From contig NZ_CP013661.2 in NCBI RefSeq assembly GCF_001465835.2, forward strand, positions 744,001-808,000: 64,000 nucleotides of DNA, in the 5' to 3' direction. The translations under genes were made by a program, and so were the position numbers. Shown piece by piece: positions 1 through 46,448 of the stretch. A model generated the notes under the pieces. That model saw only the letters and a program-made list of their open reading frames with translations, did no database searches and had not been told where the DNA came from. Position 1 is the first letter of the stretch. Every line of letters starts with the position of its first letter. Source of the stretch: Planococcus kocurii (GTDB taxonomy: Bacteria; Bacillota; Bacilli; Bacillales_A; Planococcaceae).

Positions 1-1382
<1,382 letters not shown>

Positions 1383-18902: not shown

Positions 18903-19883
18903 ATGGATACAGGTACTCATATTGTCATGGGTATCGCCCTTGGTGGCCTCGCAATGGCCGATCCCGTCGTCGCCAGTCACCCCGTTACCATGACCGCTGT
19001 TATTTCTGGTGTTATTATTGGCTCGTTAGCGCCAGATGTTGATACTGTTTTAAAATTGCGAGATAACGCTGTTTATATTCGCCACCATAGAGGTGCAACT
19101 CATTCGATTCCGGCAGTATTGTTATGGCCATTGCTTATAGCAGGTGCGATTTCTCTGATTTTTCCAGAAGCTAATCTACTGCATTTATGGCTTTGGTCTT
19201 TCTTGGCTGTCTTTATCCATGTGTTCGTCGATATTTTCAACTCGTATGGTACACAAGCCTTAAGGCCAATCTCTAACCGCTGGATTGCGCTTGGTGTCAT
19301 TAACACCTTCGATCCGATTATTTTTGGTGCACACGTGTTGGCTTTAACGATATGGGCATTTGGCGCTGATCCTGTTTGGACCATTAGCATCCTGTATATT
19401 ACCTTATTCTTCTACTATCTTGCACGTTTTGCGCTACAAGCCGCAATTAAAAAAGCCGTTCTCAACACCATCCCAGGTGCTTCTGCCGTTTTTGTGGCAC
19501 CGACGATGCGTTTTTTTCACTGGCGTATTGCTGCCGACACTGAACGTCACCATTATGTCGGCCGTGCATATGGGCGAACAATCAACATCTACGATAAATT
19601 TATGAAAAAAGAAATGCCTGAAAATAACTTGATTCAAGCAGCAATGAAAGACAAAAACATAGCTGCATTCATTTCGTTTTCTCCATTGTACCGTTGGGAA
19701 ATCAACGAGTACGGCGACATTTTCGAAGTGCGATTGATTGACCTGCGCTATCGCAGCAATGATTATTATCCATTTGTTGCTGTAGCTCATTTGGACAAAG
19801 AATGTAAAATTATCAATTCGTATACGGGCTGGATTTTTAGCGAAGACAAGTTAAGAAAAAAACTAGATTTTAGCCATAACTAG
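18903..19883 (+). CDS. yfhP: YfhP family membrane-bound metal-dependent hydrolase
   Basis: A 326-residue protein of the YdjM/DUF457 membrane-bound metal-dependent hydrolase family. The N-terminus MDTGTHIVMGIALGG carries the family His, followed by PDVDTVLK and RHHRGATHS (about 62-70), further putative metal ligands. Four to five hydrophobic helices occupy residues 5-195; a soluble C-terminal domain follows. GGAG lies 8 bases before the ATG. It is divergent from mutY, as in B. subtilis yfhP-yfhQ. B. subtilis YfhP is reported as a regulator of yfhQ and neighbours, but the enzymatic role is unproven. Confidence 0.85.
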   Translation: MDTGTHIVMGIALGGLAMADPVVASHPVTMTAVISGVIIGSLAPDVDTVLKLRDNAVYIRHHRGATHSIPAVLLWPLLIAGAISLIFPEANLLHLWLWSFLAVFIHVFVDIFNSYGTQALRPISNRWIALGVINTFDPIIFGAHVLALTIWAFGADPVWTISILYITLFFYYLARFALQAAIKKAVLNTIPGASAVFVAPTMRFFHWRIAADTERHHYVGRAYGRTINIYDKFMKKEMPENNLIQAAMKDKNIAAFISFSPLYRWEINEYGDIFEVRLIDLRYRSNDYYPFVAVAHLDKECKIINSYTGWIFSEDKLRKKLDFSHN

Positions 19884-19919
19884 AAAACGCGCACCCTAGG
19901 GTGCGCGTTTTCTTTTTTA
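19883..19919 (+). terminator. terminator of yfhP
   Basis: The GC-rich perfect stem AAAACGCGCACCC/GGGTGCGCGTTTT is followed by CTTTTTT. It lies right after the yfhP stop and before the repeat array. Confidence 0.9.
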
Positions 19920-19959: not shown

Positions 19960-20452
19960 CTTTTCTTTGTCTAGGCTCCTGCGCCCAACACCTTGGGTCA
20001 TAAGTCATCCCGGCTGTGCGGCCAAATGCGCCGCTCTGCCAGTCTGTCTTATGCCTGTCGGTGCTACACGGGCGCTTGCGCTTTTCTTTGTCCAGACTCC
20101 AGCGCCCAGATCCTCGGGTCATAAGTCACTCCGGCTGTGTGACAAAGAACGCCACTCCGCCAGCGCGTCTTATGCCCGTCGAATCTACACGGGCGCTTGC
20201 GCTTTTCTTTGTCCAGACTCCAGCGCCCAGATCCTCGGGTCATAAGTCACTCCGGCTGTGTGGCAAAGAACGCCACTCCGCCAGCGCGTCTTATGCCCGT
20301 CGAATCTACACGGGCGCTTGCGCTTTTCTTTGTCCAGACTCCAGCGCCCAGATCCTCGGGTCATAAGTCACTCCGGCTGTGTGGCAAAGAACGCCACTCC
20401 GCCAGCGCGTCTTATGCCCGTCGAATCTACACGGGCGCTTGCGCTTTTCTTT
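19960..20452. repeat. tandem array A: four 121-bp structured repeats
   Basis: The block CTTTTCTTTG recurs at 19960, 20081, 20202 and 20323, with a final partial copy at 20444: an exact 121-base period. Units 2-4 are almost identical; unit 1 is diverged. Each unit can fold into one long hairpin with four stems: AGCGCCC/GGGCGCT outermost, then AGAT/ATCT, GGG-CATAAG/CTTATG-CCC, and an apical GTGGC/GCCAC. Unit 1 replaces the apical stem with GCGGC/GCCGC, and CACC/GGTG replaces the second stem, preserving pairing. The array ends one base after the yfhJ stop codon. Open frames across it are repeat artefacts. It fills the gene-free stretch 19884-20451. Confidence 0.95.
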
Positions 20453-20703
20453 TAGTCGTTTAAAAGATGTGCATATTTCGGATTCGTTCCGGCAAATTCA
20501 TGAATTTTGTCGCCATAGCTGTCGATCCACTGTCGCATGACTTTTTCAACTACTGCGGTCCCTTGGTAATCGTATCCTGCTTTGGCGTAAGACGATTCAA
20601 AGTCAGATGCTAGTAGTTCAACCCATGTCCGTGCTTTCTCTTCTGTAAGATTCGGATTTTTTTCCTGTAACTCAATTGTTAGTTGATCGATAATTTCTTT
20701 CAT
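20452..20703 (-). CDS. yfhJ: YfhJ family (WVELL) small protein
   Basis: An 83-residue acidic helical protein containing the family hallmark WVELL (about residues 27-31, in ARTWVELLASDFE). No signal peptide or membrane helix is seen. It follows yfhH by 3 bases on the same strand, as in B. subtilis yfhH-yfhJ, suggesting one transcript with recX. Its stop codon lies immediately beside the last copy of array A. Function unknown. Confidence 0.85.
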   Translation of the reverse strand: MKEIIDQLTIELQEKNPNLTEEKARTWVELLASDFESSYAKAGYDYQGTAVVEKVMRQWIDSYGDKIHEFAGTNPKYAHLLND

Positions 20704-31828: not shown

Positions 31829-32363
31829 TGCCTGTCGGAGCAAAACGGTCGTTTCAGCTTTTCTTTTTGGCTAGCTTCAACGACCTGCTCCTCGGGTCAT
31901 AAGCCATCCCGACTATGCGCCTGTAAACATGTCGCTTCGCCGGTCTGTCTTATGCCTGTCGGAGCAAAACGGTCGTTTCAGCTTTTCTTTTTGGCTAGCT
32001 TCAACGACCTGCTCCTCGGGTCATAAGCCATCCCGACTATGCGCCTGTAAACATGTCGCTTCGCCGGTCTGTCTTATGCCTGTCGGAGCAAAACGGTCGT
32101 TTCAGCTTTTCTTTTTGGCTAGCTTCAACGACCTGCTCCTCGGGTCATAAGCCATCCCGACTATGCGCCTGTAAACATGCCGCTTCGCCGGTCTGTCTTA
32201 TGCCTGTCGGTGCAAAACGGTCGTTTCAGCTTTTCTTTTTGGCTAGCTTCAACGACCTGCTCCTCGGGTCATAAGCCATCCCGACTATGCGCCTGTAAAC
32301 ATGTCGCTTCGCCGGTCTGTCTTATGCCTGTCGGAGCAAAACGGTCGTTTCAGCTTTTCTTTT
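31829..32363. repeat. tandem array B: four 124-bp structured repeats plus partial ends
   Basis: The block CTTTTCTTTTTGGC recurs at 31858, 31982, 32106 and 32230, and a last CTTTTCTTTTC at 32354: an exact 124-base period. A partial unit precedes the first copy (31829-31857). The layout equals that of array A, with the shared core CCTCGGGTCATAAG and CTTATGCC-GTCG. The outer stem is AACGACC/GGTCGTT and the second stem TGCTCC/GGAGCA, both different in sequence from array A but still paired. The last copy runs into the final codons of the methyltransferase gene. Identical 73-residue frames here are repeat artefacts. Confidence 0.95.
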
Positions 32364-33336
32364 CATAATGTACGACATACCAGCCGCCTTCTTTTATGAC
32401 AGTTTGGATGCTGAGTAGTTCGAGTCCTGCTTGTTCTCCCCATTCAGCTAGTTCTTCGCGTTCAGGCAACCGGTATAGGTTGTCGAATGATGAGAAAAAG
32501 CTATTAAAGACATTGGCAAAAGGTGGACTGTCACTACCTCCGGCAATAGGTGTAATGATGGATAACATGCCTTCTTCTCTAACCCAGCTAGCCAATTCGT
32601 TGAAAAGTTCTTGACGTTTTTCAAGGTCGATATAGTGAATGACGTTGTTCATCATGACCATGTCTTGTGGGTTGTCAGGTTTGTATTTCCAAAGATCTGC
32701 TTGTTCGATTGTAATGTTTTTGTTTTTTTCCGTTAGTTTCTTCGCAACTTCTATTACTGAAGGGCTGATTTCAATGCCTGTGAAATGTGTATTGGGGAAG
32801 CGTTCAGCTAACTTTTTGATGTAGCCACCTTCGCCGCAGCCAATATCTAATACTGAATCCGCATGTGTTTCTTTTAAGCGTCTAGCTATTTTAGGTAAGG
32901 CCAATACTTCTAACAAACGACTTGTTTCTGCTACTGTCGACGCATGTTTTTCTTCATCGTAATGAAGACGCTCTTGGTTACGCATCATGTCTGGATAACT
33001 TAAAAGTGTTGGAATGTGCAATTCCATCATTTCTTTCAGTAGCACACCTGAAGAATTATTGCCCTTTGGTTTTGGCAATTTCCAGGCATTCCACGTTTTG
33101 TAGCGATTTCTTTCCATCTCTTTTAAATGACCGATAGAAACCCCAATACTCACCCACTGCGTTAAAAGATCTTCATCAAGTTGCAACGCATCTGACACGT
33201 CAAATTTTGTCATGGGTCGATCAAACGCTTTAAACAAATCTAGCTCATAGCCAACATATGCGTGCCAGCTATACAAAAAAGGTTCGTTCCGTTTCATATA
33301 CATCCTTGCCTTAAACATCTTCATTACATCAATCAT
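32350..33336 (-). CDS. class I SAM-dependent methyltransferase with winged-helix N-terminus
   Basis: A 328-residue protein. The N-terminal 115 residues look like an O-methyltransferase dimerisation winged helix (MTKFDVSDALQLDEDLLTQW). The Rossmann methyltransferase has motif I VLDIGCGEGGYIKKL (about 160), the acidic residue in HFTGIEISPSVI, and ADLWKY and NNVIHYI. GGAGG lies 7 bases from the ATG, which overlaps the stop of the upstream oxygenase gene (ATGA). Coupling to an FAD hydroxylase suggests that it methylates an oxygenated product; the substrate is unknown. The last codons (EKKS) are encoded by the edge of repeat array B. Confidence 0.85.
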   Translation of the reverse strand: MIDVMKMFKARMYMKRNEPFLYSWHAYVGYELDLFKAFDRPMTKFDVSDALQLDEDLLTQWVSIGVSIGHLKEMERNRYKTWNAWKLPKPKGNNSSGVLLKEMMELHIPTLLSYPDMMRNQERLHYDEEKHASTVAETSRLLEVLALPKIARRLKETHADSVLDIGCGEGGYIKKLAERFPNTHFTGIEISPSVIEVAKKLTEKNKNITIEQADLWKYKPDNPQDMVMMNNVIHYIDLEKRQELFNELASWVREEGMLSIITPIAGGSDSPPFANVFNSFFSSFDNLYRLPEREELAEWGEQAGLELLSIQTVIKEGGWYVVHYEKKS

Positions 33337-34640
33337 GTGAGTCCCTCCGTTTTCCATGGATAATCTTCTTCCGGTGTATAATACCTTAATTCTTTCGTAT
33401 CTTTAGCTAAGTCTTTTATACGGACTGGCATAATGCCTCCTTGAATAAATCGGTCTCGAACGTTTTCTTTCCACATGCCTAGTCCTGAAACATTCAGCAT
33501 TTGTTTAAAATGAAGAATTGGATCTTCTTCCATTCGTTCAAATGTTCGCTGACGTAAGTAACTCACCGGTTTAAATGGAAACGAATAAGCCAGTGCGGCT
33601 AAATGACTTAGCTGGATAACATGGTCCGCCCGTTTATAGCGAACCTTTTCATACCATTTTAAATTAGTAAGATCGGTTTGTTGCCGTTCAAACATATCTG
33701 CCGTTAGTTCGCCGAGAACATCGGCATCTTGAATTGCCATGTTCATGCCTTCTCCTGCCATTGGATGAACCGCATGACTGGCATCTCCAATAATAGCCTT
33801 ATTGTCTTTTACATATGAATCAGCATGATACATTACAGGAATCATTAATTGTATTTTTTTCCAATCAAGCAATTGCTGTACATAGCCGTCTACTACAGGT
33901 GCTAAGTCTGTATAGAGTTTATGAAAATGACTAATTGGTTTTTCTTTTAATGCTTTGTAATCTCCAGGGGGTATTAAATAAACACTGCGAACCTGATCGT
34001 CCGGCAGTGGAAAAAGGCCCAAAAAGCGATTGTATGTAGAAATAATTTTACCATCTGTAAAATCTTCTGCACGTGGAAACGTCACTGTTAGAAAGTGGTG
34101 GTTGTAAGTAGTTTGTTTGACCTCAACTTCCATCGCTTTACGCGTAACCGATGAACGCCCTTCTGCTCCGAAGAAAAACTGTGCTTCTACTTCAAATTTT
34201 TCTGTCCCTTTTTGAAGCAAAGCTGTTCCCTCTCCATAGCCTTTACAAGCCACACCCTTTAAATAGTGGAAATTATCAAACGCACAAGCGGCTTTTAAAA
34301 TGACGGACTTTAATTCTTCATGATGCATCATATAAGCTGCATTGTACTTACCCGGCAGCACACTATAATCCATGAACGATTGATCTTTTACTTGCAAGGA
34401 ACTTGAAAGTTCCAGCATATCTAAAACTTTTATTTCATTTGAGCGATTGCATATTTGTTCGTACAGTCCAAGACTATCGAATATTTGCATACTTTTTGGC
34501 TGTAGCAGTTCTCCCTTATAAGTAGGTGCCTTAACAGCCATCCGTTCAGCGAGAACTACATTGACACCACGTTGCACCAATTTCAAAGCAAGCGTCAATC
34601 CTCCAATGCCCCCACCGCCAATGAATACATCTGCTTTCAT
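33333..34640 (-). CDS. FAD-dependent monooxygenase (UbiH/aromatic hydroxylase type)
   Basis: A 435-residue flavoprotein of the PHBH/UbiH class. The dinucleotide motif GGGGIGGLTLALKL is at residues 8-21. A weak DG motif follows mid-protein, and the FAD-ribityl motif is IIGDASHAVHPMAGEGMNMAIQ-type (about 275-296). The start at 34640 was chosen because AAGGGG is 9 bases upstream; the longer frame adds 22 residues. It is translationally coupled to the methyltransferase, so the two probably modify the same molecule in sequence. A quinone, polyketide or phenolic substrate is possible; none can be proved. Confidence 0.85.
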   Translation of the reverse strand: MKADVFIGGGGIGGLTLALKLVQRGVNVVLAERMAVKAPTYKGELLQPKSMQIFDSLGLYEQICNRSNEIKVLDMLELSSSLQVKDQSFMDYSVLPGKYNAAYMMHHEELKSVILKAACAFDNFHYLKGVACKGYGEGTALLQKGTEKFEVEAQFFFGAEGRSSVTRKAMEVEVKQTTYNHHFLTVTFPRAEDFTDGKIISTYNRFLGLFPLPDDQVRSVYLIPPGDYKALKEKPISHFHKLYTDLAPVVDGYVQQLLDWKKIQLMIPVMYHADSYVKDNKAIIGDASHAVHPMAGEGMNMAIQDADVLGELTADMFERQQTDLTNLKWYEKVRYKRADHVIQLSHLAALAYSFPFKPVSYLRQRTFERMEEDPILHFKQMLNVSGLGMWKENVRDRFIQGGIMPVRIKDLAKDTKELRYYTPEEDYPWKTEGLT

Positions 34641-46322: not shown

Positions 46323-46332
46323 AAGAGCCGGT

Positions 46333-46418
46333 TTCCATCCACATCCCTGCGCAAGTGTTAACTTACAGGTTCAAAGGGTAAGAACAAATGTTCACTCTCA
46401 GCAAAAGCTCCCCTTGTG
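46333..46418 (-). ncRNA. TPP riboswitch (THI-box) aptamer
   Basis: The minus strand shows the THI-box blocks in order: GGGGAGC, GCTGAGAGTGAAC, ACCCTTTGAACCTGTAAGTT, AACACTTGCGCAGGGATGTGGA. These form the P1-P5 helices binding thiamine pyrophosphate. A terminator follows before thiT, so high TPP is expected to switch the gene off. Confidence 0.95.
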
Positions 46419-46448
46419 GTGTATACAACTATATTAACAGTCACCTGT

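Follow-up and report, generated by a model that had tools for sequence, protein, structure and literature searches.

A structured intergenic repeat that follows stop codons and forms tandem arrays in Planococcus kocurii and other Bacillales

Structured intergenic repeats are common, and several families have been described that share one or more properties with the repeat presented here. The BOX elements of Streptococcus pneumoniae are structured intergenic repeats with tandem inner modules, and the attC sites of integrons, including the VCR, are imperfect hairpins of approximately 121 bp that are found right after stop codons and fold in a strand-specific manner. Group IIC introns prefer the neighborhood of intrinsic terminators. 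REP sequences are palindromes of 20-40 bp (PMC3733652), and a study of the Bacillus cereus group describes bcr1-bcr18 as dispersed, intergenic Bacillales repeats, some of which are MITE-like and some structured, and which are often located in UTRs (PMC3446304).

The repeat was encountered in a window of 64,000 nucleotides of the Planococcus kocurii genome (positions 744,001 to 808,000 of contig NZ_CP013661.2), which contains two arrays, designated A and B (Table 1). It represents a dispersed, non-coding structured repeat that occurs at dozens of places per genome in Bacillus-like bacteria. Its combination of strong covariation, a single folding strand, and near-exact anchoring at stop codons in many genera of the Bacillales is absent from Rfam, no family of which matches array A at gathering or permissive thresholds, and no description of the family was found in the open-access literature that was searched.

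By description, these known systems are the closest to the family. Like BOX, it consists of structured intergenic repeats, but BOX has a modular boxA-B-C composition and belongs to another host group. Hairpin size, placement at stop codons, and a strand-specific fold are shared with attC and VCR sites, whereas unit 2 of array A lacks, by reading, a GTTRRRY box on both strands, the genes beside the arrays keep their synteny, and the tandem sites contain no cassettes. With group IIC introns the family shares the neighborhood of terminators, but no intron core was recognized, there being no Rfam match, and most host genomes lack RVT_1; a link with reverse transcriptase was rejected, as RVT_1 occurs in only 11 of 46 genomes. 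The family resembles the REP/REPIN sequences and their RAYT proteins in its extragenic hairpins in many copies and in the single-copy Y1 transposase of many hosts; the present units, however, measure approximately 120 nt, are not flanked by RAYT at the RAYT-size loci read, and do not depend on RAYT. Like MITEs, the family is non-coding and has many dispersed copies; with respect to MITE traits, the foot of the hairpin pairs by AGC/GCT only, and flanking direct repeats vary in length between approximately 0 and 40 nt, establishing no target duplication of fixed length. Finally, the family resembles bcr1-bcr18 (including bcr3) in being dispersed, intergenic, structured, UTR-borne, and found in Bacillales; the accessible part of the bcr description presents those repeats as a B. 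cereus-group set and does not mention anchoring at stop codons.

Table 1. Coordinates of arrays A and B, their neighboring genes, and two further features of the window.
Feature	Position in window	Strand	Remark
Unit 1, array A	19960..20080	-	Divergent copy, hairpin; farthest from yfhJ stop codon
Unit 2, array A	20081..20201	-	Hairpin; one apical pair G-U on minus, A-C on plus
Unit 3, array A	20202..20322	-	Hairpin
Unit 4, array A	20323..20443	-	Hairpin; nearest to yfhJ stop codon
GAAAAG foot (minus strand)	20444..20449	-	Opens first unit; 2 nt past yfhJ stop codon
yfhJ-like gene (WVELL, PF14043)	20452..20703	-	Stop codon 20452-20454 abuts array A
Bidirectional intrinsic terminator	19882..19913	.	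Between array A and convergent gene
Convergent gene, YdjM domain (PF04307)	18903..19883	+	Domain match
Array B	31829..32363	-	Same family as array A; 124-bp units, ~4.3 copies, half unit at distal end
Methyltransferase gene	32350..33357	-	Last codons and stop (GAAAAGAAAAGCTGA) overlap array B start
TPP riboswitch	46327..46424	-
16S rRNA gene	1..1382		Cut by window edge

Array A has a tandem period of 121 bp with 4.1 copies between 19955 and 20452 according to TRF, and reading of the sequence agrees with the initial annotation in recognizing four 121-bp units (19960-20443) that each form one long bulged hairpin. The exchange of the second stem that had been noted between unit 1 and units 2-4 is seen in the sequence as well, as AACACC/GGTGCT versus AGATCC/GAATCT. 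The apical stem was likewise thought to change with preservation of pairing, which applies to units 3 and 4 (GTGGC/GCCAC versus GCGGC/GCCGC in unit 1), but unit 2 (GTGAC/GCCAC) keeps all its pairs on the minus strand only, the odd pair being G-U. The conserved element, as read on the minus strand in array A, comprises GAAAAGC, a bulged hairpin of approximately 37 pairs, and CTRGAC.

The fold is clearly conserved, with covariation beyond that of controls. A structure alignment of 43 diverse units from within the genus predicted 37 pairs, 28 of which have changes on both sides, and 96.4% of the cells in this alignment pair, as compared to 26-43% in slid controls. None of 500 shuffles reached any of the five measures used, such that the covariation among homologous copies, on which the initial annotation had let its proposal of a conserved fold rather than a conserved sequence depend, is far above chance. 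The proposal also holds between genera and families, for which covariation is found in 34 of 37 pairs and pairing in 94.6% of the cells, in an alignment that leans towards structure because it was fitted to the model and includes some antisense matches, although slid controls still fall to 30-45%.

The plus strand had been implied as the folding strand, which has to be revised in favor of the minus strand, which for yfhJ is the sense strand, because of its better folding energy and its excess of G-U over A-C pairs. RNA folding of unit 1 on the plus strand gave a z-score of -3.45, and unit 2 reached -40.6 kcal/mol (z = -2.47) on the plus strand versus -56.5 kcal/mol (z = -5.50) on the minus strand, while consensus folding yielded -55.7 kcal/mol for the minus and -44.9 kcal/mol for the plus strand. 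Among the non-Watson-Crick cells of the genome's own units, 42 were G-U and 10 were A-C on the minus strand (pairs common to both folds, one plus-only pair being left out). In a larger set, core G-U to A-C counts were 310:114 in stop-adjacent arrays and 142:52 in other arrays, the p-values for which assume independence of related copies and are consequently too small. Judging from the sequences, this bias fits RNA, and it would also fit single-stranded DNA, in which G-T pairs are tolerated.

Read in the sense direction of the adjoining gene, the arrays begin with GAAAAG and have one orientation. This start lies between -3 and +5 nt from the end of the stop codon in 121 of 193 dereplicated arrays and 6-20 nt after it in only 3, and a further group has the stop codon within the unit; array B is an example, its methyltransferase gene ending with ...GAA AAG AAA AGC TGA and thereby overlapping the GAAAAGC start. 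Stop-anchored starts were observed in 108 of 156 cases, whereas uniform placement within the residual gap would give 42.6. Approximately 20% of the arrays have no adjacent stop codon, and the quality of the fold, in terms of both pairing and G-U bias, is the same in these arrays as in stop-adjacent ones. Some of them follow the 3' end of 23S rRNA or a terminator: units are found directly after the 23S rRNA 3' end in two genomes that belong to a different genus of the taxonomic family (locus L147, approximately 1501-1750, and L148, 105-232), and just past the terminator of an apparent T-box leader in L151 and L253.

Genes without the element that have a detected native intrinsic terminator mostly have its stem beginning 0-15 nt past the stop codon. 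A sense terminator is located within 200 nt beyond the distal end of 44% of the stop-adjacent arrays versus 4% of random segments, as scored by a simple home-made terminator finder. In an empty site (L039) the stop codon taa is followed by GAAAAGCTGGAGTC and then by the terminator GACTTCAAGCTTTTTTT. In a filled site (L222) taa is followed by GAAAAGCGAAAGCG, the unit, AATAAGAAAAAGCTTGAAG, and the terminator; the element thus lies between the stop codon and the terminator seen in L039, and has GAAAA(A)GC on both sides. Empty versions of a further orthologous site, designated D, consist of a stop codon, approximately 8 nt, and a terminator. Because empty orthologous sites display a stop codon and then an intrinsic terminator, the arrays are expected to reside in 3' UTRs. 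Array A would belong to the 3' UTR of yfhJ, because the bidirectional terminator is located beyond the array, and is probably transcribed as part of it, judging from the arrangement of these sequence features.

Within its own 3.49-Mb genome, the array A unit has 77 matches, and a profile search of regions retrieved from this genome detected at least 86 non-overlapping units, distributed over 38 arrays that each hold 1 to 8 of them. The family is present in all 24 genomes of the same genus, and covariance model matches were obtained in 38 of 61 genomes of the taxonomic family and in 40 of 299 genomes of the class, corresponding to 21 of 118 genera and several families; most of the family counts are drawn from one genus, and the sample of loci favors element-bearing sites. 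No plasmid or phage record matches the unit. The core pattern also matches two contigs of Phytobacter ursingii (Enterobacterales; L189, 1400-1429, and L197, 3039-3068).

Orthologous sites were occupied in 4 (A), approximately 22 (B), 24 (C), and 12 (D) of 30 genomes, figures that are biased because the sites were chosen for the presence of the element in the own genome. Species differ in which core type fills the same position at site C. The arrays grow in tandem in place: their linkers agree with the flank preceding the stop-proximal GAAAAG over 1.40 nt, versus 0.79 nt after shuffling (highest null value 1.04), and such likeness to the local flank is expected of growth in place. Where a next GAAAAG exists, most arrays end 0-30 nt from that next unit. 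Polarity of array growth was rejected, the outlier unit being in the middle in 19, distal in 12, and proximal in 10 arrays, as was uniform truncation at the distal end, since partial units cluster 0-30 nt from a next unit.

Taken together, the family is probably, though by no means certainly, a REP-, BOX-, or MITE-like structured repeat of the stop-to-terminator interval that expands in place and is co-transcribed with the preceding gene. Copies would arrive by insertion in this short interval; the A-rich terminator foot is a possible target, as one empty site contains GAAAAGC. The hairpin may be recognized by some mobilizing or binding factor. Subsequently, the arrays would grow in tandem where they are and be transcribed together with the gene as hairpins of its 3' UTR, any effect on the host mRNA being secondary at most.

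The main rival is a role for the host in mRNA decay or termination, according to which the array would be a beneficial 3'-UTR RNA, maintained by selection, that shields the 3' end of the mRNA or controls decay, termination, or the last ribosome. This is possible but on balance rather unlikely. It would account for the anchoring at stop codons in a fixed orientation and for a bulged fold that is conserved and shows its G-U bias on the strand of the transcript, and the long-lived occupancy of some orthologous sites, in particular B and C, also fits a host function. Moreover, longer half-lives have been described for B. cereus transcripts with bcr3 repeats (PMC3446304), a precedent rather than a test. 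However, copy number is very uneven among species of one genus, the few host genes examined share no function, and arrays away from stop codons fold equally intact. A more doubtful reading is that of a Bacillales-wide class of structured RNA, fixed in the sense orientation 0-5 nt after stop codons, for which translation termination either determines the placement or is the site of action; this could involve RNA- or terminator-guided insertion, or an action on the terminating ribosome or the 3' end of the mRNA.

It is very unlikely that the repeat is a REPIN-like single-stranded-DNA hairpin moved by a RAYT or IS200-type Y1 transposase. The strand-specific bulged hairpins and the single-copy Y1_Tnp genes (approximately 200 aa) that many genomes of the genus carry would suit such an element, but genomes without Y1_Tnp hold as many copies (67 matches in one of them, G017), among the Y1 loci read units flank only the IS200-size one (L071), and the foot has no GTAG/CGTC tag. 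A link to the RAYT/Y1 transposase was accordingly rejected, copy number showing no dependence on Y1_Tnp (Mann-Whitney p = 0.27).

Similarly improbable is that the units serve as tandem intrinsic terminators for the plus-strand gene. The tract after each stem had been called terminator-like, and on the plus strand CTTTTCTTT indeed recurs after each unit, a CTTTTC tract follows every unit, and terminator-like scan matches occur at each unit of array A. These matches are stems of 5 pairs, of which 3 are GC (GGGCGCTTGCGCTT followed by TTCTTTGTCC); they are made by GCGCTTGCGC and are found in array A only, other arrays carrying different bases at that place, such that the small GCGC stem is a peculiarity of array A. 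Moreover, the plus strand has the poorer fold, the end of the main stem is separated from the T tract by approximately 5 nt, a strong native terminator is already present next to the convergent gene, and no U tract follows the hairpin on the better-folding minus strand. A terminator-like character is therefore unsupported as a trait of the family. Finally, self-correction of the palindrome, without selection, as the source of the covariation is hardly credible: template switching between hairpin arms readily affects long near-palindromes, but the asymmetric bulges and internal loops have been retained instead of being corrected away, and copying between arms would not generate the 2.7- to 4-fold excess of G-U over A-C on one strand.

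If the repeat indeed resides between stop codon and terminator as a transcribed insertion, it would lengthen the 3' UTR of dozens of genes in each genome, that of yfhJ by approximately 500 nt. The filled and empty orthologous sites provide natural comparisons, by which the question how a repeat finds gene ends becomes testable. Among the loci surveyed, a divergent core type (sense ...GACAAGCGCTGGAAGC...AATGGC...) with the outer stems kept was observed in the same arrays as the main type (L052, approximately 2314; L055, approximately 2185; L056, approximately 2554) and at the site C loci L300, L301, and L304; species differ at one site in whether they carry it or the main type. In addition, locus L044 (1636-2387) contains a 121-aa ORF that is flanked by two arrays of the same orientation.
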